From: Pelagomonas calceolata
Lineage: Eukaryota > Sar > Pelagophyceae > Pelagomonadales > Pelagomonadaceae
Direction: 5' to 3'
Assembly (NCBI GenBank): GCA_918797485.1
Contig: CAKKNE010000003.1
Span: 3,410,001-3,474,000, forward strand
DNA length: 64,000 nucleotides
Position numbers and translations under genes: made by a program. The notes beneath the pieces are model-generated. The model did not search any database and had not been told where the DNA came from. It was given only the letters and a program-made list of their open reading frames with translations. This document shows positions 2,250-59,485 of this stretch, piece after piece (within the stretch, counting starts at the first letter, position 1; each line of letters opens with the position of its first letter).

Positions 2250-5200
2250 ATGACAGACAATCGTCACGCGTACTTCATCCGCTGCATATCCGCAATCTCA
2301 GGAATAGGTCCTAATCCCGTATTTGACAGCCTTGATCCACTTGCAGCTTTTTTGGATGATCCCTCATGTACTGTACTTCGAGCCTGGGTGCGCGAAAATG
2401 GAACGGTCCTTTTGTCGACGCTCTTAACAACAGAGGAAGCAGTAGCATCAACGACGGCTTATCTACAAAACGTTTTATATTGTTCAGTGAATTTTTAATA
2501 AACAAAGATCCCGAATGAGAAAGCATGCCTAGGTTGCATTCGTTAAGCGTCTAGCTGTGTCTCTAAACGCGAACAACTTGACTTCAGCCGTATTGCCGTG
2601 CGTGTCGGTGTTTGAGTAGCTAAAAAACCATTTTTAAATTTCAAAGCCTCGTTTCAGACTCTCACTTGGACGTTTTGGAGCAGCAGTCTCACTGCATGAG
2701 GTACTAAAAGAACTGTATTGCCCGATTCTCTTGTGCGCCGAGGACCCGGAATGCATTCCTCAAAGCGCAAAAGGTCTACTTTTTAGACTTGAGCACTCTT
2801 TGGGCTCCTTCACTGGCCTTCAGAATGACAACCCAGAGGCGCCGAACTGTGTGTGAATATCGTTTTTAGAAAAAACGTCAACATTCTACTAACTAGATGT
2901 CTCCCTCCCTTGAGTCCTTTGTCAACATCAAGTCGGTGATTGACGAAATTGACCTTTGGAACAATACGCGATCATCAATGGGCTTCGATGGTGATCTTAT
3001 TCATAGCGTTGCTAGTGCGCTTGAGCCATTGCGGAAGTGGTTCGACACTTTGGAAATGCCCCCGTGGTCGCAAGCAGGTGAGTTTATAGACCAGGTTATG
3101 GACAGCCTAGATCGCATCTGGAAAGCGGAGGGTCGTGGATCACAAGTGTAATGCCCCAGTCCCTAATCATGAGTTTACCATATGCACCAACAGGTACCCC
3201 GAAAGCCGCATGCGCCATCTCCTGGATATCATGAGCAGTACCGTGGGTCAAAGTGTGCAGCGTGAGCTTAGGGCCATCGGCATCTGGGAAGAAGGATTTG
3301 CAAAGGTCCGGCCAGAACTAATTTCAGGTCTTCGTCTGTGCGAGAGCTGGTGCAAGGCATGCGAAGAGTTGATATTCCTCTGGAAGGACAATACCGAAGG
3401 GCGCTCTTGGGTTGGCTTTGACTATAAAGATGAATTTGTGTTGCTATTAGGACACCGGCTACAAGAAATACTCACACTCCGTCAAACGCGCGAAGAGTTA
3501 AGTCGTCTACTTAGTGGAGATTTTGACACGGAGAATGATCAGAAGCAGATGCAAAATGCTCGCAGTGCAACTTTGGTAGGCTCGCTGGGCAAGTATTTTG
3601 CTGGGATAGACCCTCTGCTGTGCAGTCACCACACCGACTCTGCCTGGTCTTCATTTCAGAGCGACGATGCAGTCAAAGAACTTTTGAAGTTCAAGTATGA
3701 TGTACTTAGGCATAGAGCTGTGGAGAAATATGAAAAATCGCTAGCTCCATTGGATTTCCAGATTGCAGCTAATTTTAGGCAGATGATCTCGCCATTGCAT
3801 GAGACCCCACTCCCTCTCCTGCACGAACTTCGGCAATTTAAACATTTGCTTTCGAGATGCAACATTCGCAGAGCACTTGTCAGTGAACGGGAAGCCCTGC
3901 TTCACCAGCTGGTCGATATGATCGAAAATATGGGAGAAAACTTTCATGTATTAATTCATGACGCAATTTGGCTGTGCGTTTTACATGTCCAGATCTAATG
4001 TTGTTACATTAGGCGACCAGTGGGCTGGAAAAATATTCTTGCCTATTGGGCAAGCATGTCAGTGGGATTTTACGTGCCAGGCAAATTTCCTTCCACATTC
4101 AAGATCTTTCTGAGGGGAATGCGCAACTCTTTGGAGACCTTGAGCACGCCAAAGTGCTACTGAGTCTAGGTAGCGAGTTGCAATCTAGATGTCGGAAGAC
4201 AGAGCATGAGCTCTTGGGCGAATGGATTGCAGAGGTCAAGAATGAATTGACAAGTAGCGAGGCTGGCATGTGCACGAAGGGCAAGCTGATGGAAATTTCT
4301 CAGGAGGGCTTACTTATTGTCAACTACTCTTCACGTCTCGTCCAACTACTCCGAGAAGTCAGGCAGTTGACTGAACTAGGTGTGACTGTCCCAGATAGCA
4401 TTAAACAAGCCGCCAAAGATGGTGAGCAATACTATCGATTTGGAGTCGTGCTAAAAAAAGTGGCTTCTTTTTTCAATAGTATGGATACACAGATACTTAA
4501 GACTCAACGCCCAATGCTGTTGAATGCCCTCATGGCATTTGAGGAAATTGTCGAGAAACGCAACACTCATGGAGGGGTCATCGAGTGGAGGACACCAACA
4601 GAGTATGAACGCTACGTTGAGCGGCTCCAGCAAGCAGCAACTAAGCTCGCACATGAAAACCGCCAGCTTCGGCACATTCATCATGAGCTTTCTACCAGTG
4701 TGGTGCTGCTCATGGACATTGACATGCTTAAGCACCGGAGCAAATGGAAGCAGCATTGGCTAGAGATTGTGGGCAGGATAAATGTTCTTTCAGACCGATA
4801 CCCTCAGGATCGAATGCGCAAGTGGGTGATACACTGGGACCATCAGGTCTACAAAGTGCTGGAGGCTGCATATTGTACTGGCTTGGAAACCCTCAATGAA
4901 TCCCTTCAGCTCCCAGAGAGTTTAAAAGTTGAGCTTGGCTTCTTCTCTAGTTCAGAGCAGATGCCCCTTCAACTTAAGCCTAGTGTTGAGGAGATCCGCT
5001 CAATCTATTACCATGAGCTAAAGAAGTTTGTATCAGCTCCCAGTGCATTTAAAGGGCTTAATGGTAGCAACGAAGTCCCTATACGGTGCCTTGATATCGA
5101 ATTCCTGCCCCCAGATTACAAAATAAAAAAATAGGTTTACACCAAAATGGCAGGATCGAATACTCAATCACTAGTTCGCGTCTACATCAAGGCGGAGTTG

Positions 5201-8200
5201 TTGTTTGTTGAACTTTGTAATCTGCTGGAGCAATATGAGTCTTGGAGTAGTCTATGTGCCACGGCGGACCTCGATGCTGTGGTTGAGCTATGTTGCAGCT
5301 CACCAACTTTGTTCGAAACAAACTTCAGAGCGCTCCGGGACAAGCGCCGAGCAGCAGAGAGACTACCTGACTTCATAAAGGTTGATTGTATATGTGTGAG
5401 CCTGGGACCTCTGAAACTAAGTCTTGAAGACAATTTTCAACGTGCCTACGAGACCCTGCTGCTGGTCCTTAAGAGAACCATGACCAATGATATAAACGAG
5501 GTAACACATTTGATTACTGATTTCGCTCCATTGTATATTACCAATAGGTCAAAGCATACCTAACAGAGTCCACAGAAATGCTTTCCTCACGACCCCAGTC
5601 TGTTGAAGACATCACCATCGCTCAAAAGAACTGGCGAGAGATTGATGGTCGTCGAGATAACATGCAAGCAAAGAGCAAGGGGCTCTTGGACCTTGGATCA
5701 ATTCTCGGTCTGCATGCAACTGGGACTCACACTGACACTGCCAGCCTTTCTGGTAAAGCAAGCAGTCTTTCAGCTCGCTGGACCGCATTCACTGATCAAA
5801 TGGAAGCCTTCAATGAGATGATTGAGATCCAAAAGGGCACACTCAAAGCTCGACTTGAGGAAAACGTGATCGAACAAAATCAAGCCATAGATAAATTCGC
5901 GGAGCGGTGGCGGGCACTTAAACCTTCAGGTCTTGAACTTTGGGATCTTGATAATGTCCGTAAAACCTTTGATGACCTCAACGAGCCAACTTGCCGCGTC
6001 CTCAAGAGACAGATTGATTACTTTTGATAACTTTTTGTTTGGTACTAGGTGGAAAGCCCAATTGCAAGATTTCAAAGATCGAGCTGATGAGCTAGTAGAG
6101 CATTTTGTCAGCTTCAATATGCCGGTGCCGCCACGATTTGATGGGCTTTCGGTGATTGAATTAGAGATCACAATGTCATCAACTTCTTGGTCCCTGCTAA
6201 GGGATTACCTCAGTGAACTTGATTTGCTTGAAAAACAGGACTGGATCAGTTTCCGGGGCAATATGCATCTGCTACATGACTTGGCAATGAGTTGGAGCGA
6301 CAAGGTCAAAGAGAGAATTGTTGCTGGGCAGGCGGATGCTGTCATGTTGCACCTCTCATCACAATTAGAACGCATTAAGGCTGCAGCAACCACTCTAAAG
6401 TACTGTCACGGGAAAGATTTTAAGGATGAGCACTGGAGTGCCTTGCTTCAGGGTAAGCTTGGTCTCGGGAAGGAAATTAGGCTGGAGTCACTGACCGTTG
6501 GCCACTTTGTGGCTGCCTTGGACAAAGTTTTAGAACCAGCTCTTCTTGTATTTGTCAAGGAGCTTCAGGCTCAAGCACAAGGTGAAGTCCTGGTCCGTGA
6601 CGCACTCCAAGAGCTCTCCGTGTGGTCGCAGACCGCTGAATTAAGTCTTGTGGAGTACAAGGAGCAGGGCAGGAAGACTATGCTCGTCAAAGACTGGGGA
6701 AGAATGTTCTTGGATTTGGGCGACAAGCAATCTCTACTCTCTTCTCTGAAAGAGTCCCAATTCTATCGTGCTTTTGAAAGCATCGGTAAGTGGAGCAACA
6801 TAGCATATGCCATACCCCACACTATTGCTAATTCAGGCGCAAGTTACGAGACTAAAATGTCCAATCTTGACTTCGTTCTCCATGCGCTTAACACGGTACA
6901 GAGGAAATGGGTTTACCTTGAGCCTATATTTGCCCGAGGAGGCCTTCCAAATGAGAGTAAGCGTTTTCGGGGCGTGGATGAGGACTTCCGAGAGATAATG
7001 TGCCTTGTAGAAGTAGATCAAAAATTGTTTTCAACTGCGTTTCTTGAATGGGCTTTGTGGTTTCATGCGTCCATCATTCGTGCCTCTCAGGTTCAATCTG
7101 GTTGACCCACACGTGCATCATGACATCAAAAGAACCTTGCAGACAATGCTGGAACAGCTTGAATGGTGTCAAAAGGCACTGTGCAATTTCTTGGAAGAAA
7201 AAAGGGCTAAATTCCCACGATTTTACTTTATCGGGGATGATGATCTCCTGGAGATTCTGGGACAGGCCCAGAATCCGGCAGTGATTCAAGCGCATTTAAA
7301 AAAACTGTTCCAGGGTACAACTACAGTACGGTTCAATAAAACAATGACAAAAATCCAGAGCATGGTCTCGGCAGCCGGTGAGGTAGTTGACCTGGATCAT
7401 GCTGTGGCAACCTCTGACCGGGTCGAGGACTGGCTCTCGGCCTTTGCCGACGAGATGAAATCCACTCTTGCTTCGCTACTGGCTTCCTACTTACTATCAT
7501 TGACGAAGACAGGCGAAGTAAACTTTGAAATGTACCCTTCGCAAGTCATGTGCATCGGAGAATTGGTGCAGTTTACCGACAGTGTTGAGTCATCTATTGG
7601 GAACGGTTTCACTGATTTGCTTATCAAGGTCAAGTCTCAACTTGCAGCTCTTACAAATCAGGACTTATCGGCAATGCCAGTGGTGCAGATTAAAGTCAAA
7701 GCCCTTGTTATGGATCTAGTACATAACTTGGGTATTTTAGAACATCTGGATTCCGCCAGATGCTGTCACGTGCACGACTGGGCTTGGCGCAAGCAGCTGC
7801 GATATTACGTGAGAAATATGAAATATATTGCAGCAAATGTCTGTATGTCAGATGGCGCCTTTTTGTACACCTATGAATATCAAGGAAATGCAGCGAAACT
7901 TGTTCACACACCATTGACAGATAGATGCTACCTAACATTAGTACAGGGAATGCACATGGGTTTTGGCGGCAACCCGTACGGTCCAGCTGGCACCGGAAAG
8001 ACCGAATCTGTTAAGGCTCTTGGTAATGCCTTTGGTAGGCAGGTCTTGGTGTTCAATTGTTTCGATGAGTCACACCAACTTCTGACAAATAGAGGCTTTA
8101 TGTTTCTCAATGAGATTGAGGCACTTCATAGCTCGGGCTTGCTCTTTGCAACCTACGAATGGTCATCCAAGAAGCTGCTATATGCGGGTTTGACCCACCT

Positions 8201-11200
8201 CGTAAAGACAAGGGACACAAATAGGGAGATGGTTGAGTTCATATGTCCCAACGAGGCCAGTAGCTCCTCTGGCGAGGAATGGTGGGGAAATGGCATATCT
8301 CTTGTGGTTACCCCGGATCACAACATGGTAGTGCAAGATAGTTTGCTGGAGAGGGAGACTCTTCGTGCAGAGCCCTTTGCTTCAAGAATGCAGCAGCCAG
8401 AATGGTACATGAAGAAAAGTGCTGTTGAATTGTCCAGAAGTCACACTCGCCTTCAATTTCTGACTTGCGCGCGGGAGGGCATCGATGTGCCAAAGAACTC
8501 ATCATTGGCACAGTATATTGATGCAAAACTTAAGTCACTTCGCATCGACCCTAGAAAGGAAAACCGGGTGGTGGCATTCCTGGAGTTCTATGGCTTCTGG
8601 CACGATAATAGTTTCGTCATTTTCCGTGAGAACAAAAAGGCATGTGCTCTCTGTAGCTACGCATGTAAGCAGACCGAAATGGAATTCCTAAAAAAACGGT
8701 TAACGCTTCTGGGGGTAGCATTTCATATCATTGTGATTGGCAGAGGATGGCACATATATATTGATGACTTGCACTATTTGTCCTGCTTTGTCGTCAAGCT
8801 TGGGCGATGTTGCCAGCAAAACCAAATTGTTGGGCACTGTCAAGTGACCGACTCGGGCGAACTTTCCCAGGTCGAGCAAAATAAGACATTAAGAACTTTT
8901 AGCAAATACACTGATATGAAAGCCTGCGCATGCAGAACCTCTGATGGAGATGACGCGCGATGTATTGGTGTATATTTTAGCCTTTTTGTTGGTGATGTCC
9001 ACTGCAGTCAAGTGCGTCTGATATTCTCCCGATGCCAACTGCCAAGCGACCTGGAAGGCCAGATGTTGGGCCTGGTAGGACAGTCACTACAAGATCTAAT
9101 GCCTAAATACATTTCAATGCCTTTGGTATGCTACCCTTTTGCTATTCGAACTCGGGGGTGGAATAACTTCTCTAGGATGGCCTCATTTTTATCAAACGAG
9201 GATGCGGAGCCGTCACAACGGCTATTAATCAATGTGAACAATACCCAGACCTGTGCTTATAACAGAGAAAGATTTGTAGAAAAAACAACCAATAAGCCTG
9301 GCGAAATTCGCCCTGGACTGTTGTTAAGGCAGCTGCCCTGCTGGGTCTTTCACCTCACAAGATCAAAAGCAAGAGCAGTCCTGACCGGCATCTGCGTCGC
9401 CTACGGCCATCATTGTGGGACTCAAAGTAGTATCCAAGTCGTCGGAGATAGGATTCGTGATCAACTCGTGTGTCTTGCCTTGCATGCCGGGTGGTCAACG
9501 CATTTCACTTATGATGGCTGCAACAGCCGTGAGTCCCACCCACCAAGTTCAGATACCTGGTGTGTCGTTTATCTCACAGATATGTGTTGTTTGGATGCAA
9601 CAATTCACACCAGAAGTAGTGAACACTCACTTACAACAATTGATCACGCACGCAGGAACGGATTGGCAATTCCATCAAAGGTACGAACCATCAAATATAC
9701 AGGGCAAACGTGGTGTGTTAATGTTCCAAAATATCATTTTGTAGTTGTGCGTCGAGCACGAAGAGATGCCCAAGGACGAGTAGTTCTGGCCTCAGTGCCA
9801 ACGATTCAAGGAAACTGCGATGAAGGCATCGACTTTCATAGCATGGGGCGCATCTTCATAGGCTTGGTGAAATGTGGTGCCTGGGGATGCTTTGATGAAT
9901 TCAACCGGCTGAAGGAAGACCAACTCAGCGCAATTTCACAGCAGATCCAAGTAATCCAGGACGCGATTAAGGCACGCGCGCCCGTCTTGAGTCTGGTGGG
10001 CAGAGAAATAAATGTCGATTTCAATGCTGGCATATTTGTGACTTTGAATCCTGCCGGTAAGGACTATGGGGGACGATCCCAGATTCCTGATAACCTTAAG
10101 GCCCTTTTTCGTCCCGTTGCCATGGGTCGACCGGACAATGAATTGATCGCCGAAGTTTATTTACAGACAGAGGGATTCACTCAGGCACGTGGCCTTTCAA
10201 AAAAAATAGTGTCCCTATTTATGCTAAGCAAGCAATTATTGAGCCGGCAGCGCCATTATGACTGGGGCCTGAGAGCATTAAAAGCTGTTTTGAATACTGG
10301 AGGCAAACTTCTGGTACAAGCACGAGGAGAAGCGCAGGTGAGTGTCGGGATGGAAGCAGAGCTGCTCATCAAAGCAGTGCGCATAAATACACTTTCGAAG
10401 CTTACATTCAGCGACACATCTTGCTTTCTAGCATTGATTGGGGACATATTTCCTGGTGCGGAATCAAGCGATGTGGCTGGTGGGGAGTTGGAAGTAGCAA
10501 TCCGGAAGGTTATGCAGAGCAAGCCTTTTTCCTTGACTCTAGACGAAACACAGATTTGCAAGATGCTGCAGCTCAAGGAGGCCCTGGACCAGCGAATGGG
10601 TTGTGTTGTGGTTGGTCCTTCTGGATGCGGCAAGTCAACAGTCTGGCGTGTCCTCAAGGCGGCCTTGATTGAAGGTGGTCAGGCTGTTCAAGTACATGTG
10701 ATGAATCCCAAAAGTATGCCAAGACAGCAACTTCTTGGCGAGATGGACATGGACACCCGTGAGTGGACTGATGGCGTACTGACAGACGCAGCGCGCAATG
10801 TAGTCAAGGCACCAGCTGAGGTGCGTTCCTGGATTGTCTGCGACGGAGATGTTGACCCAGAATGGATCGAGTCTCTAAACTCGGTTCTCGATGACAACCA
10901 CTTGCTGACACTGCCCAGTGGCGAAAGAATTTCCTTCGGTGGCAATGTAAATTTCCTCTTCGAGACACATGACCTTCGTTTTGCGTCTCCTGCAACAATA
11001 AGTAGGATGGGAATGATATTCCTCGCCGATGAAGACACCAATAAAAAACGACTCGTTTCAAAGTGGCTGTTGAGTCAAGATAATGCCAACCGTAGTCATC
11101 TTGCAGGTTGGCTTGAAGACATCTTTTACAAAGCGCTGGACTATCTTGTACGCATGCGCTCTTTTGTTGTAGAAACAACACTTGTAGGCACGATTTTGAA

Positions 11201-14200
11201 TGGGCTGTCGTCCATCTCAGGAGTATCCACCAAGCTTTCATTTGTAGTCGGACTCATCCGGGGTCTCGGCGGCAATCTCTCAGCCTCAGATCGATCTTGT
11301 TTTGCAAAAGAAGTGTTTGCCTGGGCCAGAGAACGCCCACCTGACCACAGCGCTCCACTAGACTGTGATGTTGACATTTCAGGTGAGAAGTTATTTAGTT
11401 ACAGTTCACAATTTGGAGATGTTTCCGAGGATGCGGGTAAGGAGCCGAATTCGAAGGAGCAGACTCTGAAAAGTGTAATTGAGACGCCTTTAACCCAACG
11501 AACCATGGCTCAACTGAAGCCATGGATTGAGGCTGCTGAGCCATTTATCATAGTGGGGAATGAAGGCTGCGGCAAGGAACTTATGATTCGACACGCTTTT
11601 GCGCAGCGGCGCAAATTTGTTGTCACAATAATCAATTGCTCTGCTCAGACCAAGGTCGCGCATATAATTGCTAAGATTCAGCAGTGCTGTAGCTTGTTCT
11701 CTGCCTCAGATGGGCGTGTGTACCGTCCACGTGATTGCGAACGACTCATTCTTTATCTGAAAAATCTCAATCTACCCAAACCGGATATATACGGTACCTG
11801 TATGCTGGTTGCTTTCCTTCAACAACTTGTAACCTTCGGGGGGTTTTACGATGCAAACCTGGAGTTTCTCCGCATAGAGGGGGTCCAAATTGTTGCATCA
11901 ATAAACCCAGCAACGACAATTGGCAGACACCCGCTCAGCACGAGATTCACGGCAATAGTCCGGATATACTACCTTGACTACCCTGAGACACACGAACTTT
12001 CGACTATCTATGAGAAGTTATTAGTGATAGCATTCAGGCGAGTCATTGCTGAGGGAGGAGCAGAAGTTGCTTCAAATTTGGCAAAGTTTATGAAGCTGGA
12101 GGAACGCACTAAGCTAGCGACGACTCTTGTTGAGATATATGAAAAGATCAAGGCAACATTTCTGGTCGACGATGCAAGGCATTACCTATTTACGCCACGG
12201 GATTTGTCTGCGTGGGTAAAGAATCTCTCCCAGTACGACCTTGGCGGTGAGGACCTCCTTGATGTAATTTCGTATGAGGGATCCAGGATATTCAGAGACC
12301 GCATGGTTGACGAGGAGAGTGAAACAAAACTGGATAGTATTGTACGCACTATCCTTCGGTCTAAATTTCATTTTGTTCCCTCGCTGACCGATATACATTT
12401 TACAACAATGGGCTTGGCAGCCATTGGTGGTCACACTAAATACTCCAAGCAGCAGCGGTCTGAATCTAGTGGCACTGATAGTCTGAACACGCCATTGCTT
12501 GTGCGCACCACTCGAACGGAATTTCAGTCCTATGTGCAAAAAGGAATTGAACACTACGAGCGCGAGACTGCTGAGCTTAACATGCTTTTATTTCCCCAGA
12601 TTCTCGAGCATATATCTCGAGTAGATCGCGTCATCTCTAGTCCTGGCGGCAACCTGCTGCTCATTGGACGAAGCGGAGTTGGGCGTCGAACGGCAGTCAA
12701 GATCGTATCACATATGCATGGTTTTGGTTTCCACAACCCATCGCTGACCCGCTCCGCTGGTGAGGATGCTATAAGGCATTTCCGATCTGAGCTGAAACCA
12801 GTGTTTCATAGCGTTGCAACAGAAAGGGGTCACTCTATTCTATATTTAGAAGACCACCACTTTACCTGTGAGGCTGTTCTCGAAATTGTCAATTCTATGC
12901 TCTCATCTGGCGAAGTCCCAGGACTATTCAGCAATGAGGAGCTCGAGACCCTTTATGCTTCCATGCGCGAAGCAATGATGGACGAGGGGACAGAAGTAAA
13001 TCCTTACGACTATTTCATTCAACAAATACGCCAATCTATCCATCTTTGCGTGGCAATGGACCCGACTAGCAAAAATTTTGACATTCGCTGTGAATCTAAT
13101 CCCGCCCTTTTCACGAGATGTACAATTCTCTGGATGGGCAAATGGAGCAGATCTAGTATGCGATCCGTGCCAGCTATGATTGATGGAGTTAAATCACTCC
13201 TCTTGGCGGGCAGTTCACCTGATGCCACAGCAGTCCAAAGACTCGACTCAAAAATGAGCATGCAAGGTGGTAAAACAGCAAGCAAGGATGACGACGAGGA
13301 TGTGGCCATGGAAGAACGGCCTGGCGCAAAAAATGACAGAGATGAAAATCTTCTGGAGGCATTGATAAGAATCCACGAATCTGCGGATCTAGCATCTCCA
13401 CGTGAATTTATGGTTTTCCTTGAGAACTGGAAAGTACTTTACAGCCAAATGCAAGTCGGCATTCAGACCAAGTTGAAGCACCTGCAGGCAGGATTGAAAA
13501 AACTTGGCGAAGCATCGATGACCGTGGACTCACTCTCGAATGATGCAGAACTGGAACAGGAAAAGCTCCAAGATGCCCAAAGAGGTGCGGATGAGGCCAT
13601 GGAGATGATAACAAAAACGCTTTCTGAAGCAACAAGCCGTCGTGCTGAGGTGCATGAGCTGCAAAGGGAAGTCAAGGAGAAAGAGGAACATACTATGAAT
13701 CGTCAGGGAGAAATAAAAAATGAATTAAGCTCAATTCAACCTGTGTTAGAAACAGCCAAGGCGGCAGTTGGACAGATAAAGGCTGAGCATCTGAATGAGA
13801 TACGATCACTAAAAATGCCGCCAGAACCGATTGCAGATGTACTTGGCGCGGTACTGAAACTCTTGGGTATATCAGATGTTTCTTGGACTTCAATGAAAAA
13901 GTTTCTTGGAAATCGTGGCGTCAAAGATGAAATATTAAACTACGACGCACGTCGCATAGGAGGTGAGATGCGGAAAGATGTAGCTCGCCTGCTGAAGCAA
14001 AAGGCATCATCCTTCGATCAGGCAGCTATTACTCGTGTGAGTGTGGCAGCAGCTCCGCTAGCAGCATGGGTTAAGGCAAATATTCGTTACAGTGTAGTGC
14101 TAGAAAAAATCCGGCCGCTTGAGAGTGAGTTGTCACAAGCCGAAGATTCTCTGGCAAAGTGCAATCATCGTCTACAGAGATGTGAGGAGGAAATTTTGTC

Positions 14201-17200
14201 GATAGATAATCGAGTGACAGCTTTGAAATCCAAGTTTGGAGAACACACCCGCGAAGCTGAGAAACTCCGGGCACGATTAATGATGGCAGAGGGGACACTG
14301 GCCAAAGCGCAAAATCTCTTAGCCAAGCTTTCCGATGAACACGCACGATGGCAGGACCAGGTCAAAGAATTGAGGCTAGAGTTGGCGGCTCTTCCGCGTC
14401 AGCTGCTTTTGGCTGCAGGTTTTCTTACATATCTGCCACGTTGCCCCGAGGACGCGCGTGAGGCGGCGACAGATGCCTGGAAATTGCATGTTGAAGTTGC
14501 AAACTTTTCATTCAAGCATCTCCTATCAACAGAGTCGCAACTCCTTGCCTGGAAGCAGCTAGGGCTTCCAGATGACCCTCTTTCTCAAGAGAATGCACTT
14601 GTCATTGCGCATAATCCCCACAGCCGCGTGCCTTTTGTGATTGACCCAGCTGATGCGGCCAGAGGTTGGCTTCAGGCACACTATGGTACGGATCCAGCTA
14701 GACCATTAGAATCCATCCAATCAGCCGACACACGATTCACAAATCAGGTGGAACTGGCGGTACGTTTTGGCAAAACCCTCCTTGTCTTTGATGTTGACAC
14801 GCTGGAACCCATGCTCTACCCCATTGTACGGAAAGACATTTTTATGCAAGGTCCTCGCTCTGTTATTTGTCTTGGTGGTAAAATGCTCGACTACAACAAG
14901 AATTTTCGTCTCGTCTTAGCAACGCGCAACCCACAACCAGATCTTCCCCCTGACGCTACTGCTCTTTGTACTTTAATCAACTTCACAGTAACTCGGTCTG
15001 GCCTTAGAGGTCAGCTCCTCGGCATGTCTATCCACCACGAACAGCCCGAACTGGAGATCAAGAAATCGCAGATGCTCAAACAGGAGGAAGATTACAAGAT
15101 CAGACTCGCGGCACTCGAAAAGACTCTGCTTGAAGCTCTTGCTACTGCGGAGGGTGATCTTCTCGAAAATTCACTGTTGATTGAATCTCTATCGCAGACA
15201 AAGGAAGCGTCATGGGAAATTAAAAATGCGCTCTCCGCATCGGCACAGGCGTCGGTAGAACTGGACAAGCAACGCGAAGCATATAAAGGTCTGAGCAGTG
15301 ACTGCTGTCAGCTCTTCTTCCTAGTGCGCAGCCTAGCTGCAATCAATAGCATGTATCATTTTTCTCTTGCATCATTCCTGAGACTCTTTAGGAAAGGGCT
15401 CCTCCAGGGTAAATCCATCGACACAGACGCAACACTCGCGGAGCGCCTGCAGCAACTTACACCTCTCATTGAGCGGCTTGTTTTCTTTTATGTGAGTCGT
15501 GGCCTTTTCAAAGCTGACAGATGTATGTTTGCACTTCATGTTGTTCACGGAATGCACAAGAAACATTTTCAGGCAGGAGAATGGGAGCTGTTTGCCGGTC
15601 TCACTCCCACAAAAGAGGGAGTATGTGACGGTCGTCCACTTGATCTTCCTTGTTGGGCAGGGCACGATCGAATGGCAGCTTTCTCCAACATGAGTACGCA
15701 ACTTGGCGCGCTTGTCAGCGAGCTGGACCTTAAAAACACTACAAGGTGGAGCCACTGGGCAAAATCCCCAGAGTGTGAGAGGGAATTTCCAGCTGAAATA
15801 ATGCGCAAATGCACGCCGTTCCAGCGAGTTTTAATTACACAATGCTTCCGTCCGGATAGGCTCACAACTGTTTTGCATGCTTTTGCTTGTGAAATCCTGC
15901 AGATCTCCGCACTTGCGCCTCCATCATTGAATTTTGACCAGCTCCACAAGCAGGAAACCGAGGCCAATCTGCCAATTCTTCTCATCACAACAGCCGGTGC
16001 CGATCCGAGCAAAGAACTGGCTGATTTTTCAGCCACTGTCGTTGGCAGGAATCGATTCAAATCCTTAGCAATGGGTGGAGGTACGCATGATTTGGCAATG
16101 TCACTTTTGAGAGAGACGAGCTCTGAAGGGGATTGGCTTTGCCTGCAGAACTTGCACCTAGTTGTTGCTTGGCTTCCTTTACTGGAAAAGGCACTTGCCG
16201 TAATCAGTGCGCATGAAGACTTTCGACTGTGGCTCACAACAGAACCCCATACAGCCTTTCCGCACGTATTACTTCAAAAATCGCTCAAAGTGACTTTTGA
16301 GTCTCCTCCAGGAACCAAGAGAAATATGCAGAGGACACTGTCAATCTGGGGTCGTGACTTTTTTGATACTGGTGAATGTCGACACCGCCCTCAGCTTTTA
16401 TTTTGCCTTGCATGGTTACATGCCATCCTACAAGAGCGACGCACATACGTCCCTCAGGGTTGGAGTAAGTTCTACGAGTTCTCAGTAGGAGATCTTCGAG
16501 CTGGAGCCTTCGTTATGGATGCTGCGGCGGCAGCTGCTACCAAATCCGGTGAACTCGACCTTGATGTCGTCCATGGTCTCATAGAAGACGCGATATACGG
16601 TGGACGTATTGACAACCTGCATGATGCACGTGTCCTAAAAGCATACCTTCGCAGAATATTCACTCGAGATGTTATTGAGGGCCGGCTACCCCTTACCCCA
16701 GACTTGTTGGTTCCTATTCCCTGCACATACTCGGCCGCTGTTTCCGCGGTGTCTACTTTAAGCCCTCAGGACACCCCAGCATTATTTGGGCTTCCAAACA
16801 ACATCGAAAAATCGTTACAGCGCACAGCATCTTCACGCGTGAGTGACCAGCTTCGTCAGCTTTATGTGGTTGGTAGTGAGTCCTTGCTGTTTGACCGTGA
16901 GATTTGGCGCTCAAAGCTGGGGCCACTACTGGAACACTGGCAGCACTTGACAGCCAAGTATCCAGCACTCAATGCGAAAGCTTCTCTCGGGGCCTTGAAC
17001 ACTGTCGAACTGAAAAATCCAATTGCTGGCTTTGTTGCCACGGAGATTCTAGCTGCAGAAAGCATTCTCTTGCATGTTTCATCTCAGATGGCTACTCTGA
17101 AAAAGGTAATTTACGGCACAGCTCTCCTAACTCCATTCATCAAGACCACTGCGACATGTCTGTTAATGGGAAATATCCCAAGTACCTGGAGCAACCTGTG

Positions 17201-17770
17201 GGATGGTCCAGATAAGCCCACCACTTGGCTTGCGCTGCTCGTTCACAAGGCGTTTGGCATCAAATCCTGGTCACCAAAGGTACGCCTTAAGATTCCTTTG
17301 TGCGGATACTAATAGATTGCATCTAGGTTCGTGATGGCTCCCTGTTGAAGGACGAGCTGGACCTGAATGACCTGTTTAGACCACTAACGTTCCTGAATTC
17401 TTTGTGCCAACTGACTGCTCGCCAAGCACACTGTCCTATGGATGTTCTCAATTTGGTGTCCGCTTGGTCAAAGAGCTCCATTGTTTCATCCACTTTGGTG
17501 ATCATAAAAAGTCTCATTATGCAAGGTGCAGAAATGAACGGCACGCAGCTTAAAGAGACTTCTAGAGATGCTCCTGAGATCGTTCCGTTGCCTCCTCTTG
17601 TCATTGGGTATTCTAAAGTGGCATTGTCTGACAAAATAAATAGTCTCCAGTTGCCGGTCTACCATGATGCCACTCGCAGGCAATTTCTTTTTGAAATCCA
17701 GCTACCGATCAAGGAAGATGCCGACACGTGGATCCTTTCTGGTGTTGCGATTTTCCTCTCACAAGCTTGA
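2250..17770 (+). CDS. DYNC2H1: Cytoplasmic dynein-2 (IFT) heavy chain carrying an intein
   Basis: Retrograde intraflagellar transport motor; about 4,980 residues as read, about 4,395 without the intein, against about 4,300 in human. ATG at 2250. The tail is in short exons; seven introns are clear: 2851-2896, 3148-3193, 3948-4012, 5075-5134, 5501-5547, 7039-7090 and 17280-17326. The junctions after exon 1 and near 5930-6048 are unresolved. One 10.2-kb exon (7091-17279) holds the motor: linker, AAA1 with GPAGTGKT (about 7980), AAA2 with GPSGCGKST (about 10617), AAA3 GNEGCGKE (about 11558), AAA4 GRSGVGRRT (about 12667, no canonical Lys), then stalk coiled coils around the microtubule-binding domain (about 13440-14400), AAA5, AAA6 and the C-terminal domain. 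Close agreement with dynein-2 rather than axonemal or dynein-1 chains (e.g. YPESRMRHLLDI, FYFIGDDDLLEILGQ, GDVDPEWIESLNSVLDDN). No motor motif is missing once the intein at 8058-9815 is removed. Confidence 0.95.
7039..7090 (+). other. Dynein-2 intron preceding the giant motor exon
   Basis: A 52-bp GT-AG intron in phase 2. Joining GC to G rebuilds an Ala codon and runs the DEDFREIM segment into FNLVDPHVHHDIK in the dynein-2 linker. It is the last intron before 10.2 kb of uninterrupted coding sequence. Confidence 0.75.
8058..9815 (+). mobile_element. Intein with degenerate LAGLIDADG endonuclease in dynein-2 AAA1
   Basis: 586 codons in frame within AAA1, without stop or intron. Residue 1 is Cys and block A reads CFDESHQLLTNRGFMFLNEI. 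Block B is SLVVTPDHNMVV (T85, H88). Block F is WCVNVPKYHFVVVRR (residues 552-566). Block G ends IQGN, with Asn586 followed by extein Cys+1. Removing it restores VLVFN-CDEGIDFHSMGRIF, the invariant dynein AAA1 sequence, so both boundaries are fixed to the residue. Residues 150-490 resemble the two-motif LAGLIDADG endonuclease of PolB inteins of algal giant viruses: VVAFLEFYGFW (173-181), then LTRSKARAVLTGICVAYG (433-450) and LALHAGWS (473-480). The expected GDG/ADG acidic residues read HDNS and AYGH, so homing activity is probably lost. The penultimate residue is Gly instead of the usual His, which occurs in some inteins. Splicing is expected but not proven. Confidence 0.93.
17280..17326 (+). 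other. Last dynein-2 intron with TACTAAT branch site
   Basis: A 47-bp phase-0 GT-AG intron with a branch-point-like TACTAAT at 17307-17313. Removing it joins SWSPK to VRDGSLLKDELDL, as expected for the dynein-2 C-terminal domain. It shows what introns in this half of the window look like: 46-65 bp with a near-consensus branch site. Confidence 0.9.
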
Positions 17771-21954: not shown

Positions 21955-22035
21955 TAGTACCTACGGTACGAGCTTGGAATCGTAGGACCTACCGTAGGTA
22001 CGGTACCGTAGGTACTGGTAGATACCGTAGGTCCA
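21955..22035. repeat. Cluster of TACCGTAGGTAC palindromic words
   Basis: Overlapping copies of CCTACCGTAGGTAC, ACGGTACCGTAGG and TACCTACGGTAC in both orientations, exactly where the balanced-composition DNA passes into extreme GC. It is either a real repeat at a compositional boundary or a place where assembly may have joined unrelated sequence. Confidence 0.7.
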
Positions 22036-24868
22036 GCTTGTACGCGCTCGCGCGGGCCTTCCTGCCCCCGGCGGCGCCTCGCCCGCCCTGGCGCGGCCCG
22101 GCCGCGGGCGTGGGCTGCGCGCCGCGCTCGCGCTCGCGGCGTGTGCCGCCGCGCGCGCGGGCGGGGCGTGCGTCCGCGCCGCGCCGAACGAGGAGTTCCG
22201 GGCCAGCCCGGGCAACTTCGCGCACTGGCTCCTCGCGGCCGCGTACCCGCGGGCCGCGGCGCGCGGCGCGGCGGCGGCACCGCCGCGCGCCGCACGCGCG
22301 CCGCTCGCGCGCGGGGACTCAGATCGGCTCGCCGCGTGGCGGCCGCACGGCGCCGCGCTGCTCTGGCCCGCGGCCGCGGCGTCCGCGGCGCCCGCGGCGT
22401 CCGCGGCGCCCGCGGGGCCGTGCGCCGGCGCCGGCGCGCGCGTGCGCGCGCCGCACCTCGCGTTTTGCGCGGCCGCGCACTGGCGGGCGCTGCCCGCGTT
22501 CGCGCGCGGGGTGCGCGCGCGCGCGCGCGCGCCCCGCGCGGGGGTCCACGCGCGGCTCCGCGCACCGCGCGTCGTCGTGCTGCTGCGTCGCGGCGGCGCC
22601 GGCGCGCGCGCCTGGGACGTCCGCGGCCTCGGCGCGTCGTGCCGCCGCGGCGCGCTGCGCCGCGCGGCGCGCGCAGGGGGCGGCGCCGTCGACTGCGTCG
22701 CCGCCGACGCGGCGGCGCCGCTCGGCGCCGTCGCGCGTCGCCTCGGCGCGGCGACGGCGGTCGTCGGCGCGCACGGCGCGGCGCTCGCGAACCTGGCCTT
22801 CGCGCCGCGCGGCGCGGCGCTCGTCGAGCTCGACGCCGCCGCGCACGCGGCGCGCGGCCGGCAGCTCTACCAGGCGGCAGCGCGCGCGCTCGGGCTGTAC
22901 GCGGCGCGCGTCTGGCTCGGCGCCGATGGCCGCGCGCGCGCCGCCACGCGCGTCGGCGCCTGCGCGGCGGCGCGGCCCGACGGGTCGCGCGTCGCCGGCG
23001 CGGCGCGCAAGGACCTCGCCGCCGCCGGCGTCGCCGCGTACGACGCGCCGGCGGCGCTCGGCCCCGCAGCGGCGCGCGCGGTCGCGACGGCGGCGGCGGC
23101 GCGCGGCGGTGGCGCGGCGGCGCGGCGGCGCCCCCGGGCGCCGCGGGCGCGGCGGAAGCGCGCCGGCGGCGGCGGGGCCTGGGGCCCCGCCGCGTGGCCG
23201 GCGGCGGCCGCGGCGCGCGGCGCCGCCGTCGGCGAGCCGGCGGCGCGCGGCGGCGGCGGCCCCGCCGCCGCCGAGCGCGCCTGGCTCGCGCGCGCGCTGC
23301 CGGTCGCCGCGGTTCGCGGCGGCGGCGGCGGTGCGCGCGCGCTCCTCGTCGCCCACGCGCCCGCGGCCGCGGACCAGGCCGCACTGCGCGCGCTCGGCCG
23401 CGCGCTGCGCCGCGCGGGCCGGCCCGCGGCCCTCGCGCACCTGAGCGACGAGTCCGCGGCGCGCGACGGCGCCTACGAGGCCTGGCCGCTCGTGCTGCGC
23501 CAGTACGCGGCGCCCGCGCTCGCGGCTCGCTGGGGCCCGCGGCGGCTCGCGTGGCTGCCGCTCGGGCCGGTCGCGCCGCCGCCGCGCGCGGCGGCGGCGG
23601 CGGCGCGGCGCGTGGCGTGGGCCTTCGCCGGTGACGCGCGGCCCGGCCGGCGCGCGGCGCGGCGCGCGGCGCGCGGCGCGCGCCACGCGACGGCGCGGTC
23701 GACGACGGGCCGGCCGTGGCGGCGCGACGTCTGGCGCGCGGCGACGCACGCGCTCCTGCTCGCGGCCGCCGCCGACTGCCCGGCGCCGCGGGGCTTCCGG
23801 CACGCCGAGACGTTCCGGTGGTGGGACGCGGCGGCGGCGGGCTGCGCGCCGCGGCTCGGGGCGCGCGCGGGCGGCGGCTACTTCGCGTGGCTGGCGCGCG
23901 AGCTCGGGGGCGCGGCGGGCGTGCGCACGGCCGGCGCGCTCTCGCGGGGCGGGCCGCGCGCCGCGCGCGCGGTCCGCGAGGTCGCGGCGGGCGTGCGGCG
24001 CGACGCGGCCGCGCGCCTCGCGTACCTGGACGCGGCGCGCGCGCGGCCGGCGGCCGTGTTCGTGGCCGTGCCCCGCACGGGCACGCGCAGCGTGCTGGCG
24101 GCGCTGCGCGCGGCGCCGCGCGCGCGCGCGCGCGAGGGCCGGCCGCTGCCCGCCGCCTGCCGCCTCGACGAGTGGGCGCGGCGCCTGCGGGCGGGCGGCG
24201 CCGTGCGCTTCGGGGGGCGGATCTACCGGGGCCGCGCGGGGTGCTGGCGGCGGCTCGCGCGCGCCTGCGCGGCGGCGCAGGCGGCGGCGGCGCGCGCGGC
24301 CTTCGACTGCGGCGCCGGCGCCGCCGCGGCCGGCGCGCGCGTCTTCTACGACCACGTCCCGTATTTGCCGACGCTCGGCGACCGCGCCGCGCACGTGATC
24401 GTCCTGCGGCGGCCGCTCGCCTGGGCGGCCTCGCACTACTACTTCACGCGGCGCGCGGGCGCCGCGCCGGCGCTCGCGGACGCGCTCGCCGGCGGCGGGG
24501 CCGCGGCGCTCGGCGCGCGCGCGCCGCAGGCCCGGTACGCGTGCGGCGCGGCGCCGGCCTGCGCGGCGCCCTGGGGCCAGGCCGCGCCGGCGCTGCTCGC
24601 GCGCTTCGCCGCGGTCGGCGTGCACGAGGACCTGGCGGCGTCGTTCGCCGCCCTCGAGCGCGCGCTGCCGCGGGTCTTCGGCGGCGCGGGGGCGGCGTTC
24701 CGCGCGCACGTGGGCGCGCGGCGCGCGGCCGCGCAGCCGGCGGACGCGGCGCGGCCGCGCGCGGAGGTCCTGCCCGACGCGGCCGCGCTGGCGCTGCGGC
24801 GCGCGCTCGCCGAGGACGCGGCGCTGTACCGCGCCGCGCGCGCGCGGCTGCGCGGCGGGGGCGACTAG
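22031..24868 (+). CDS. GT61-like + exostosin-like + sulfotransferase fusion
   Basis: The frame is open from a TAG at 22028 to stop 24866-24868 (945 codons) with no clear ATG, so the 5' end is undefined and may be in an upstream exon. Near the N-terminus is a signal-anchor-like stretch LRAALALAACAAA. The first third contains VVGAHGAALANLAF and GAALVEL, the signature end of GT61/DUF563 glycosyltransferases. The middle reads like a GT47/exostosin domain: AHLSDE, VLRQYAA, WLPLGP, RRVAWAFAGD, then HAETFRWWDAAAAGCAPRLG. The last third looks like a PAPS sulfotransferase: VFVAVPRTGTRSVLAAL (5'-phosphosulfate loop), FYDHVPYLPTLGD, and HVIVLRRPLAWAASHYYF (3'-phosphate region). A Golgi enzyme making a sulfated glycan is the natural inference. 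Codons are almost all G/C-ending and Ala and Arg are inflated, so exact domain limits are unsure. Confidence 0.7.
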   Translation, partial: VQLVRARAGLPAPGGASPALARPGRGRGLRAALALAACAAARAGGACVRAAPNEEFRASPGNFAHWLLAAAYPRAAARGAAAAPPRAARAPLARGDSDRLAAWRPHGAALLWPAAAASAAPAASAAPAGPCAGAGARVRAPHLAFCAAAHWRALPAFARGVRARARAPRAGVHARLRAPRVVVLLRRGGAGARAWDVRGLGASCRRGALRRAARAGGGAVDCVAADAAAPLGAVARRLGAATAVVGAHGAALANLAFAPRGAALVELDAAAHAARGRQLYQAAARALGLYAARVWLGADGRARAATRVGACAAARPDGSRVAGAARKDLAAAGVAAYDAPAALGPAAARAVATAAAARGGGAAARRRPRAPRARRKRAGGGGAWGPAAWPAAAAARGAAVGEPAARGGGGPAAAERAWLARALPVAAVRGGGGGARALLVAHAPAAADQAALRALGRALRRAGRPAALAHLSDESAARDGAYEAWPLVLRQYAAPALAARWGPRRLAWLPLGPVAPPPRAAAAAARRVAWAFAGDARPGRRAARRAARGARHATARSTTGRPWRRDVWRAATHALLLAAAADCPAPRGFRHAETFRWWDAAAAGCAPRLGARAGGGYFAWLARELGGAAGVRTAGALSRGGPRAARAVREVAAGVRRDAAARLAYLDAARARPAAVFVAVPRTGTRSVLAALRAAPRARAREGRPLPAACRLDEWARRLRAGGAVRFGGRIYRGRAGCWRRLARACAAAQAAAARAAFDCGAGAAAAGARVFYDHVPYLPTLGDRAAHVIVLRRPLAWAASHYYFTRRAGAAPALADALAGGGAAALGARAPQARYACGAAPACAAPWGQAAPALLARFAAVGVHEDLAASFAALERALPRVFGGAGAAFRAHVGARRAAAQPADAARPRAEVLPDAAALALRRALAEDAALYRAARARLRGGGD

Positions 24869-24933
24869 GCGACGCGTAGCCACGTGACGACCGCTCCTAG
24901 GGAGCGAAGCCGGGGCTTCGCGGGCGACTCGGA

Positions 24934-24957
24934 GGGGTGGTTTTGAAGAAATCGGGC
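24934..24957 (-). other. Degenerate histone-type 3' stem-loop
   Basis: Read on the minus strand the site is GATTTCTTCAAAACCACCCC, the same element as the intact stem-loops beside H2A, H3 and H4 but with one mismatch and one missing stem base. No histone sequence precedes it, so it may be a relic of a lost minus-strand histone gene or a duplicated tail. Confidence 0.5.
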
Positions 24958-25148
24958 GTGACGCCCCCCGGGCCCCTTCTGATTACGGGCTGTGTCCGTC
25001 CTGGGGCGATCGTAGACATCTCTGCTACAGAGGCGTCGGCGTCGCCGATGCTTATAATAATTATATATTGTAGCCGAACATTACGATACGAAAGGACCCA
25101 GATTTCTGAAACAGAGCCTCGGGACAAAAACGGGACTTCTCACTTGAG

Positions 25149-26836: not shown

Positions 26837-27895
<1,059 letters not shown>

Positions 27896-32085: not shown

Positions 32086-33266
32086 GTACATAGGTGGCAT
32101 TTTGGTGAAGCCTTCTTCGCGCGCTGGCACGTCCTGCACACGAGCACCTCCATGCTACAGGACGGGCACTTGGCGCCGGCCTGGTAGCGGTCCCATGGAA
32201 TTGAACATATGCCACACCTCGAAACGACGTCGTGCTTCGCAGCGCCATGGGCAAACCTCCTATCGAACACGTAATTCTTGCCGACCCAGTGCCCTCCTTC
32301 GTCCGGATACTGCTCCAGGTAGCGGTGGATGCCGCCCTCGAGCTGGCCGTGCGGCCGGATGCCTTCCCTGGCGAGGAAGGCCGACGCCCTTTCACAACGA
32401 ACCCCTCCGGTACAGTACATGAGCACCTTCTTGCCCTCTAGCTTAGCCTTGTTTCGCCTAACCCACTCCGGAAATTCCGTCGACCGGCGCATCTGGGGAT
32501 CTATATATTCTGCGCCTCCCGGGGGAGCGAAGCGCCCGATCAGCGTTTCATTGGCGTTGCGCACGTCAATAACCACGGCACTCGGGTCCTCGAGCGCCTC
32601 GTGGAACTCCGAGGGCGATAAGTGGTTCGCGCCCTTGTGTAAAGGGGCATCCTTCTCCGTAATGCCGTAGGTCACGATCTCCTCGACTTTCCAACATTTG
32701 GCACCCTTCATGAGGTGACTCTGTGGCAAGTGGTCCACAAATTTAAAATCGACAGAACCGTCAAAAGTCTCAGCATCAATTCTGGAGAGGTCTTCGCAAA
32801 AAGCTCTAGAACCTTCATACGTGGACGTCAGCGTCGCGTTGTAGCCCTCTCGCGCGACGCGGAGGCGCCCCGTCACGCCGTGCTTCTGCATCGCGGCGTG
32901 GCAGGCGGCTACCGCTTTCGTCGTCTCGCGGTCCGACGCTTTTGTCGGCCGGTAGGCGTAGAAGAGGACGAGCGTCGTCGGGCCGGCTTCTGTTGGTCGG
33001 GGCGGCGGCGGCGGCGGCGGCGCGGCCGCGGTCGGGCCCCGGTCGGCGTCGGCCGCGGGGGGCGGCGGCGGCGGCGCGGCCGCGGGCGGCGGCGCCGGCT
33101 CAGGCGCGGGCGCGGGCGCGGGCGCCGGCTCGGGCGCGGGCGCGGGCGCCGGCCGCCGCCGTTTCGCGCGCGGCTCGCCGTTCGACTTGCGCGCGGCGCG
33201 CGTCGCGCGGTAGGCGGCCGCCTCCCCGTCCGTCGGCGGTCGGCCCAGCCGGGCCGCGAGGTCCAT
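32082..33266 (-). CDS. TSTD2: TrhO/TSTD2-type rhodanese protein
   Basis: 394 residues from ATG 33266. After a Pro/Ala-rich N-terminus (about 90 residues) comes an acylphosphatase-like domain (TTLVLFYAYRP ... GVTGRLRVAREGYNATL). A rhodanese domain follows: VVIDVRNANE, active loop MYCTGGVRCERASAFL with the catalytic Cys, and QLEGGIHRYLEQYP. The C-terminus has a Cys-rich zinc-type tail: CGICSIPW, CPSCSMEVLVCRTC, CHLC. This order is that of bacterial TrhO (tRNA U34 5-hydroxylation) and eukaryotic TSTD2. tRNA modification is inferred from TrhO. It is convergent with CDIN1, sharing four bases. Confidence 0.9.
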   Translation of the reverse strand: MDLAARLGRPPTDGEAAAYRATRAARKSNGEPRAKRRRPAPAPAPEPAPAPAPAPEPAPPPAAAPPPPPPAADADRGPTAAAPPPPPPPRPTEAGPTTLVLFYAYRPTKASDRETTKAVAACHAAMQKHGVTGRLRVAREGYNATLTSTYEGSRAFCEDLSRIDAETFDGSVDFKFVDHLPQSHLMKGAKCWKVEEIVTYGITEKDAPLHKGANHLSPSEFHEALEDPSAVVIDVRNANETLIGRFAPPGGAEYIDPQMRRSTEFPEWVRRNKAKLEGKKVLMYCTGGVRCERASAFLAREGIRPHGQLEGGIHRYLEQYPDEGGHWVGKNYVFDRRFAHGAAKHDVVSRCGICSIPWDRYQAGAKCPSCSMEVLVCRTCQRAKKASPKCHLCT

Positions 33267-33572
33267 GTTGCGTTGCACAGGCTGCTGCCGTGCGGCGGCG
33301 CGCAGGCGTCACGTTCTACGAATGCGCGTGGTCCCGGAGCCGTCCGCTCGCGTCACACGGCGACGGAACCCAACCAATACGTATGCGCAATGCCACTGCA
33401 TGCAGCAGCAAGAGCTCGAGTCCTTGCAGCGGTGCGCAAGCCGCACAACTGGACCCGCAGCTCTGATCGCATCCGTGACGCCGCGCCGCCGGCGCCGGGC
33501 ATCCGTAGCCCGTCCGCCGTCGTCCCCTCAGCCGGCGCCGGCCGCAGCCGTCGTCCCTGCGGAGCACACAGC

Positions 33573-39886: not shown

Positions 39887-39922
39887 TAGTTACCCACTAG
39901 AATCTAGTTACCCACTAGAATC
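39887..39922. repeat. 18-bp tandem duplication
   Basis: TAGTTACCCACTAGAATC occurs twice head to tail, in the spacer between the divergent RRM and EDRF1 genes. The spacer 39453-40144 holds no gene that I can support. Confidence 0.9.
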
Positions 39923-40144
39923 AGCCCTCGTCGTCTTTGGAGATCAAAACGAACGTCGGCGCAAACAGCTCCTCTGTTGATCGGAAGGATCCCCAGTGCT
40001 GCTCGCACGGCTGCGTCGTCGACGGGCATCCGTCGACACTGGAGGACGCCCTCTCCAGCCGGGGCCACCCCACCGTCCAGCGGCGGTCGTGATCCGCAGG
40101 AGCCGACGTCCCTTCGATCGAGCAAGACCGCCCAGCATCCAAAC

Positions 40145-46937: not shown

Positions 46938-47936
46938 TCAGAGGTAGTCCCGCCACCCGAACATCGCGCCGACCGCCGCCTTCTTCCCGAGCAGCTCCCG
47001 GTCCGCTTTCCGTGCCTCCGTGAACCGCCGCCCGTGCATCGTGATCGGCGAGCTATAGGGCCACATCCAGGACCAGTCCTCGCCTATATCTGTGTACCAA
47101 CCTTGCTCCCGGTCGTCGAACCGCACGCGAGCAAAGCCATGAGTGGTAGCTATATCATCCTCGTGGACCTCGCGGTCCCGCATACCTCTTCTCAAATCCT
47201 CGCAGTTCTCCGGTTCCATAAACGCATAATTCTTGTCGAACAACTCATAGCCAAGAGGGAACGCTGCGCCCACGAAGGACGTCTGGAAGTCGGGACCGCA
47301 GACCCGCACCCTATGATCATGCCCGAGCGCGACGAGGCGACACCGTAAACCATAGCGAGGATCACCAAAAAAATGCGACAGGTGCGACGACGTCAGGCGG
47401 GGAATGTTCCTGAGGTCCTCGAGTTCAGCTTGGCGCTCCTCCTCCCTCAACTTTTTCAGTTCCTCGTCGTTCTCGAGCCGTAGCATCTCGAGGTAGTGCC
47501 AGGCGTCGGCGGCCACGGCCGCCGCGACGGCGTCCGCCACGACGTCTCCGACGGGTTCCTCCTCCTCTTCGCTCGAGTAGTCCTCGTCCTCGTCCTCCTC
47601 TTCTACCTCTGGCGCAGAAGGACCGCCGCGGTCGTCGTACCGCAACCGGCGCTTCGCCGTCGCTTCCGTAGCTTTCCGCGGTACCCAGACGCCGCGCCAA
47701 GCCAGCTCATCTACCGTCTCATCTCGCTTACTCCTGTACTGGTAGTCGTTGACGCAGCGCCAGTCGACGCGCCGATCCGCCCTATCTCGTAGATCTCGGT
47801 CCGTAAGCGGCTCATCAAATCTCGCGCCGACCGCCACGCATTCGTCCACGCGCCTGCGCGGAGCATCAAAATCGAAAAATAAACCACCCACGCCATCGTG
47901 AGATGGACACGAGTCGTTTGAATGAAGTGAAGGCAC
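46938..47936 (-). CDS. Acidic protein without ATG; probable last exon of the SAP/WW gene
   Basis: The frame is open from 47936 to stop 46938, but has no ATG near its start and overlaps the 3' end of the SAP/WW frame by 71 bp. A short GT-AG intron ending in CGCGCAG at about 47857 would join the SAP/WW frame to RVDECVAVGARFDEPL in phase. I therefore think this is the 3' exon of the same gene, though a separate gene is possible. The product has an acidic run (EEEDEDEDYSSEEEEEP), a coiled coil (LENDEELKKLREEERQAELE) and a globular C-terminus with many Trp (GEDWSWMWPYSSPITMHG). No known domain. Confidence 0.5.
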   Translation of the reverse strand: MPSLHSNDSCPSHDGVGGLFFDFDAPRRRVDECVAVGARFDEPLTDRDLRDRADRRVDWRCVNDYQYRSKRDETVDELAWRGVWVPRKATEATAKRRLRYDDRGGPSAPEVEEEDEDEDYSSEEEEEPVGDVVADAVAAAVAADAWHYLEMLRLENDEELKKLREEERQAELEDLRNIPRLTSSHLSHFFGDPRYGLRCRLVALGHDHRVRVCGPDFQTSFVGAAFPLGYELFDKNYAFMEPENCEDLRRGMRDREVHEDDIATTHGFARVRFDDREQGWYTDIGEDWSWMWPYSSPITMHGRRFTEARKADRELLGKKAAVGAMFGWRDYL

Positions 47937-49107: not shown

Positions 49108-49152
<45 letters not shown>

Positions 49153-59420: not shown

Positions 59421-59485
59421 GGTGCCGCGCTGCAAGGTGTGGCTCCTGGGGTTCGGGTGCTGCGCGCGTCGGGGTGCGCCGCAGC

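Follow-up and report, generated by a model that had tools for sequence, protein, structure and literature searches.

In the Pelagomonas calceolata window analysed here (64,000 nucleotides; contig CAKKNE010000003.1, positions 3,410,001 to 3,474,000), the motor domain of a dynein-2 heavy chain gene (DYNC2H1) is interrupted by an in-frame insert of 586 codons (8058-9815 on the forward strand, 1758 bases; all coordinates are those of the window), which its sequence identifies as an intein. We consider it very probable that this is a complete LAGLIDADG-type intein lying in the AAA1 module of dynein-2, that it splices by the class 1 pathway, that its endonuclease has decayed and that it is retained for the sake of the motor. 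No account of an intein in dynein, in a dynein heavy chain or in a ciliary protein was found in the open-licence PubMed Central (PMC) literature, searched by titles and abstract openings, which fits the statement of a first-pass annotation of this DNA that none had been described. Within those papers, dynein has not been reported before as an intein host and would be a new one.

The host gene and its empty site

The host is identified as a dynein-2 heavy chain, as had been proposed in that annotation, by a dynein-2-specific domain and by its best matches. In the 3431-codon frame that contains the insert, Pfam recovers AAA_6 (E = 1.6e-118), DYNC2H1_AAA_dom (PF21264, E = 3.7e-32) and the stalk and C-terminal domains (among 25 of the 37 families). 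The AAA_6 match is split in two stretches, the better of which starts at residue 931, at the end of the insert. When the insert is excised, the sequence VLVFN-CDEGIDF is regained and the junction is gapless in three printed dynein-2 (DYNC2H1) alignments. The joined flanks (330 amino acids) match the dynein-2 heavy chains of the PDB (4rh7, E = 9.9e-136; 6rla, 1.2e-135; 6sc2, 1.4e-135); the top four matches are all dynein-2, the next dyneins (dynein-1 and axonemal) reaching no more than 296 bits compared with 455 (best 60 of 88 matches). The insertion claimed at these positions was located exactly, and the restoration of dynein claimed for its removal between VFN and CDEGID holds against the dynein-2 chains. 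Upstream of the insert, the N-terminal flank carries GPAGTGKTES, which we take to be the Walker A motif of AAA1, at a spacing of 16 residues.

The frame of the insert has no stop in its 586 codons, with 21 to 41 stops in each of the remaining five frames, and the chance of such a stop-free stretch is about 6e-15 as estimated from base composition. The same gene has two likely introns, of 65 and 47 nucleotides, which speaks for the alternative that the insert is an open-frame spliceosomal intron excised from the RNA. This is very improbable indeed, given the stop-free frame and the intein-like character of both ends. A GT-AG intron at 8058-9815 was rejected by splice-site and reading-frame tests, because the excisions that restore the dynein product permit only TG..AC, GT..CT or TT..TG ends, and never GT-AG.

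Homology of the insert to viral inteins

Relatives of the insert were obtained with two baits. The first, a DNA pattern for the insert motif LALHAGWS with an added extension, retrieved one viral contig (L001). Here a 338-residue intein, ending in Gly-Asn before Ser, lies in an RNA polymerase gene of the RPB2 type (six RNA_pol_Rpb2 domains in Pfam), which a TFIIB-like gene adjoins; judged from these two genes, the contig looks giant-virus-like. The second, made of the viral LHAGW and N-terminal motifs, retrieved seven contigs, namely L001 again, further inteins in L003, L004 (cut off), L005 and L007, and L006 and L008 without an intein frame. With an alignment of these five inteins (L001, L003, L004, L005 and L007) as the query, 222 of 248 candidates in the viral contigs were accepted as relatives, of which 80 loci including L001 were kept; two were dropped for a stop or a broken frame, and removal of 18 near-duplicates from the 78 clean sequences left 60 inteins for a profile.

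The insert scores 85.8 bits with this 60-intein profile, its residues 1-239 and 424-567 matching as separate but collinear pieces, while the best of 2000 shuffled inserts reached 6.1 bits (1035 were reported at all) and the reversed insert gave no match. Separate profiles agree: the N profile (104 positions) scores 31.2 bits and starts at residue 1, the C profile (39 positions) scores 21.2 bits and the middle profile 30.4 bits, against best shuffles of 6.9, 6.5 and 6.3, respectively. When all six frames of the window were scanned, the insert frame was the sole significant match of the whole, N and C profiles (E = 2.4e-23, 1.4e-07 and 1.1e-05), the next-best values being 3.1, 4.2 and 1. Pairwise comparisons were consistent with this. 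BLASTP aligned the insert with the RPB2 intein of L001 over 62 residues of the second LAGLIDADG region (E = 9e-06), with weaker collinear pieces that cover block B and the LAGLIDADG motif preceding that region as well as short chance pieces, and hhalign of five viral inteins with the insert covered residues 424-563 only (E = 2.1e-06, probability 89.4). The viral family is itself an intein family, because the five-intein profile, from which the insert was excluded, finds solved inteins in the PDB (2cw7, E = 4.6e-06; 6zgq, 3.2e-05; 1dq3, 0.014; two others above 0.6). The insert therefore belongs to this family, and its interpretation as an intein, first made from the sequence alone, is supported by the profile match together with the class 1 residues described below.

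Other searches returned little. The insert had no match in 50,697 phage records, and its direct search of the viral contigs gave no accepted relative (0/1 candidates). With the 61-row alignment, one of 257 candidates was accepted in the viral contigs, on a contig already in the set, and none of 29 in prokaryote genomes. The L001 intein as a query returned only L001 itself, and an intein-free dynein relative sought in the viral contigs was not obtained (0/6 accepted).

Splicing residues and the endonuclease

Class 1 inteins have Cys or Ser at position 1, a TxxH motif in block B, a C-terminal Asn usually preceded by His, and Cys, Ser or Thr at position +1. Blocks A, B, F and G were all found where the first-pass annotation had placed them (Table 1), and the residues for splicing are present: Cys1, T85, H88, Asn586 and Cys+1, along with Arg565 and Gly585. 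The usual penultimate His is replaced by this Gly585, which is Gly in 60/60 of the related viral inteins; a terminal Gly-Asn is also described for the Chlamydomonas RPB2 and Phaeosphaeria RPA2 inteins in the portion of PMC1635734 drawn on here. Gly585 is therefore not disqualifying, given the viral relatives and the Chlamydomonas RPB2 intein. The intein is probably splicing-competent, as far as these residues tell.

The endonuclease part is less well preserved. The second catalytic Asp, found in 55/60 relatives, is Tyr449 in the insert, and the first LAGLIDADG motif has Asn184-Ser185 where relatives have Glu or Asp (51/60) followed by Gly (60/60), although the adjoining Asp183 could replace the catalytic acid if the alignment moves by one. 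The pair of acid-bearing motifs expected of an active enzyme is not found. Since the second catalytic Asp is replaced and the glycine of the first motif is lost, the LAGLIDADG endonuclease has probably decayed and is predicted to be dead. Considering columns at least 90% conserved in the family, the insert keeps the family residue in 11/15 columns of the splicing part and 4/8 of the endonuclease part, a difference too small for proof alone, in counts that are inflated at the bait-motif positions; the individual substitutions named above carry more weight. Residues 240-423 (8775-9326) are possibly an extra insertion within the endonuclease domain and are poorly modelled. Neither this stretch nor the degenerate LAGLIDADG domain figured in the first-pass annotation.

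Table 1. Features of the dynein-2 gene and its intein, in window coordinates.
Feature	Position	Strand	Basis
Upstream exons, dynein tail (DHC_N1, coiled coil, DHC_N2); first exon not delimited	3111..7105	+	Pfam matches on four open reading frames
Likely ordinary GT-AG intron, 65 nucleotides	3948..4012	+	Stop-free frame join, in-frame stop within; reading frame only
Likely ordinary GT-AG intron, 47 nucleotides	5501..5547	+	Stop-free frame join; reading frame only
Long open frame, motor half of dynein-2 heavy chain, intein-interrupted	7017..17312	+	3431 codons; translation; Pfam
Presumed Walker A motif of AAA1 (GPAGTGKTES), N-extein	7980..8009	+	Sequence
Intein, 586 residues	8058..9815	+	Profile match 85.8 bits; best of 2000 shuffles 6.1
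Block A, CFDESHQLLTNRGFMF, Cys1 nucleophile	8058..8105	+	Family profile/alignment
Block B, ISLVVTPDHNMVVQ, residues 80-93, T85xxH88	8295..8336	+	Family profile/alignment
Degenerate first LAGLIDADG motif, residues 170-190, FYGFWHDNS; family Gly replaced by Ser185	8565..8627	+	Family profile/alignment
Residues 240-423, about 184 residues outside both profile-matched stretches	8775..9326	+	Without Pfam match; mostly low model confidence
Second LAGLIDADG region, residues 424-486, LTGICVAYGHH ... LALHAGWS; catalytic Asp replaced by Tyr449	9327..9515	+	BLASTP; family profile/alignment
Block F, KYTGQTWCVNVPKYHFVVVRR, residues 546-566	9693..9755	+	Family profile/alignment
Block G, residues 580-586, end Gly585-Asn586	9795..9815	+	Family alignment
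Cys+1 of C-extein (CDEGIDF), usable splicing nucleophile	9816..9818	+	Found in three printed dynein-2 alignments

Points against and alternative explanations

Several observations weigh against the identification of a splicing intein. The insert alone has no match in Pfam, NCBIfam or PHROGs (E up to 1) or among PDB sequences (E up to 10). The first-pass annotation had held that such silence of the intein models would make this another kind of insertion, and at face value the Pfam and NCBIfam results point that way. Nevertheless, Pfam is insensitive here: at E up to 0.01, Intein_splicing catches only 14/60 of the viral relatives (LAGLIDADG_3 catches 51/60), so Pfam-based surveys could miss many such viral inteins. 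The match of the middle part is circular, because relatives were first baited with the LALHAGWS of the insert itself; its own N and C ends were used in neither bait. Codon use counts in favour of the intein, but as a weak measure. The insert scores -1.201, within the range of four held-out exon windows (-1.191 to -1.222) and above 200 shuffles of the insert (mean -1.298, best -1.248), but a wrong frame of the insert reaches -1.224. Finally, the insert deviates at 8/23 of the family columns conserved in at least 90% of sequences.

Structure prediction adds to both sides. Without an alignment, AlphaFold2 was uninformative, with a predicted local distance difference test (pLDDT) of 32. With the 61-row alignment, the mean pLDDT was 64 and the predicted template modelling score (pTM) 0.68, with 10-residue means of 88-96 (residues 1-60) and 85-94 (residues 541-586) towards the two ends. 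Searched against the PDB, this model gave 13 matches with E up to 0.001, all of them endonuclease-bearing intein chains (best 50 of 144 matches). The best fold match, PI-SceI (1vde; E = 1.6e-09), fits only moderately over the whole chain (TMq 0.38, root-mean-square deviation 11.5). Among viral models, the first three matches were a Pandoravirus DNA polymerase, a phage phosphoesterase and a fragment of an Emiliania huxleyi virus RNA polymerase. The modelled fold is not independent evidence, because the alignment consists of inteins; the match of the model to solved inteins supports the fit of the sequence to a Hint fold and is no proof of it.

The lack of a Pfam intein match would also suit an insertion loop of some other origin, retained in the dynein motor. 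We find this scarcely credible, as the profiles match both ends and the middle of the insert, and its site breaks a stretch that is gapless in the printed dynein-2 alignments and that we take, from general knowledge, to be the AAA1 core. More serious is the case of an intein that either no longer splices, so that the dynein-2 gene is dead or altered, or is confined to cleavage. The decayed look of the endonuclease, with the eight deviating columns, can be read in this way, as can block A, which has Ser5-His6 instead of the Asp-Thr of most relatives (His6 in 5/60), and the spacing of blocks F and G, which exceeds that in the five inteins of the first alignment. Against this, Cys1, T85, H88, Gly585, Asn586 and Cys+1 are all kept, and the motor frame 3' of the insert stays open for 2498 codons, which would be unlikely to last long in a dead gene. 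Loss of splicing is therefore quite improbable in our view.

A splicing-competent intein thus remains the preferred explanation, and general knowledge of class 1 splicing provides the steps that it would follow. The precursor dynein-2 chain would be translated whole, including the intein; Cys1 would undergo an N-to-S acyl shift, aided by T85xxH88; the chain would be transferred to Cys+1 of CDEGID; and cyclisation of Asn586 would free the intein, with the exteins ligated as VLVFN-CDEGIDF (ligated peptide VLVFNCDEGIDF) into an ordinary motor. Given the apparent decay of the endonuclease, homing has probably ceased, and the element may be retained since either the loss of splicing or an imprecise deletion would break AAA1 and with it the motor. 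The insert, the match of its empty site, its place in the intein family and the presence of the splicing residues are demonstrated here; we infer that the intein splices, that its endonuclease is dead and that the motor needs the splicing.

Relationships with known inteins

In our tree, the insert branches beside the RPB2-type inteins of L009-L013 (support 87/60), although its branch is the longest by far (2.97), the tree draws on 363/745 columns and its bootstrap had yet to converge. This placement is weakly supported and must be taken as a hint only. BLASTP ranked L011, L010 and L012 first among the relatives. A common stock with virus polymerase inteins is likely, in whichever direction the transfer went; this comparison covers viral inteins. 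The insert shares with the RPB2-type inteins of viral contigs that look giant-virus-like (L001/L009, L010, L011, L012 and L005/L013) the block order, the Cys start, TxxH, a VYC-type block F, Arg565, the Gly-Asn end and the LAGLIDADG pair, whereas it differs from them in its dynein host, its length (586 versus 316-351 residues) and the loss of the catalytic Asp. The RPB2-type naming of these genes is based on Pfam for L001 and on the flanking motif for the others. Eleven further inteins of the set (L003, L007, L016-L019, L029, L034, L055, L072 and L081) lie between GDK(L/I/M-like) and S(G/S)R(Y/F)G(N/D)KG, and their host genes presumably resemble bacterial-type RNA polymerase beta subunits, judging by this motif.

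The yeast VMA1 intein PI-SceI likewise sits in an ATPase and combines a LAGLIDADG endonuclease with a Hint fold, which the alignment-based model would give the insert too; it differs in its active endonuclease and its His-Asn end, and the identity is only 10%. The RPB2 intein of Chlamydomonas reinhardtii, likened here by its published description rather than by sequence, is also nuclear and eukaryotic, with a Cys at the first position, a Gly-Asn end, a Cys at +1 and a LAGLIDADG domain, but in another host protein (PMC1635734, in part). The hosts of nuclear inteins given in the accessible part of PMC5784728 are Prp8, VMA1, RNA polymerases, ThrRS, glutamate synthase, chitin synthase and eIF5B. 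The insert is likewise nuclear and in frame, whereas dynein is absent from the table of that 2018 survey of eukaryotic inteins, and the word was not found in its main text, as far as that part extends. PMC5405695, to judge from its accessible part, concerns other algal inteins.

Genomic setting

The GC content (guanine plus cytosine) per kilobase is 44-55% over the first 22 kb of the window and then rises in a sharp step to 57-89%, up to 64 kb. Low-GC blocks flanked by normal GC and carrying the mating-type locus are described for Micromonas, Ostreococcus and Bathycoccus in the portion of PMC11106453 drawn on. The step resembles the border of such a block, for example on the outlier chromosome of Mamiellophyceae, and is a lead only; Micromonas is the sole flagellum bearer among these three genera. 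No account of a low-GC pelagophyte genome was found in the open PMC literature. Both strands of positions 22001-25000 (83-89% GC) carry long open frames that overlap, and an inverted repeat with 134-nucleotide arms, 83% complementary and 33 nucleotides apart, occupies 27259-27559. In the GC-rich part, Pfam recovers an RNB/Dis3-like exoribonuclease (32643-36206, forward strand), an EDRF1-like protein (39908-42703, forward), a SAP/WW-domain protein (47869-53253, reverse) and a sulfatase (57540-60254, reverse). Neither tRNAs nor Rfam families at the gathering score were found in the window.

Functional implications

If the intein splices as proposed, retrograde ciliary transport in this organism would depend on protein splicing. 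A bolder version, in which an endonuclease-dead intein is fixed, retrograde intraflagellar transport of the flagellate consequently needs splicing, and the supply of dynein-2 is switched by the splicing reaction at Cys1 and Cys+1, is speculative and, in our estimation, unlikely; the splicing cysteines of other inteins are sensitive to redox conditions and metals. Low recombination in a low-GC, mating-type-like block could explain why the element has not been purged.

An intein at this position, near the Walker A motif of the main ATPase site, would extend the short list of nuclear intein hosts to a cytoskeletal motor. It would also tie inteins of the virus polymerase type to a eukaryotic gene that is not known from viruses, which bears on how inteins spread to new, non-homologous sites. 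The dynein-2 intein would, moreover, offer a simple test of the reliance of a cell on protein splicing for building its cilium.

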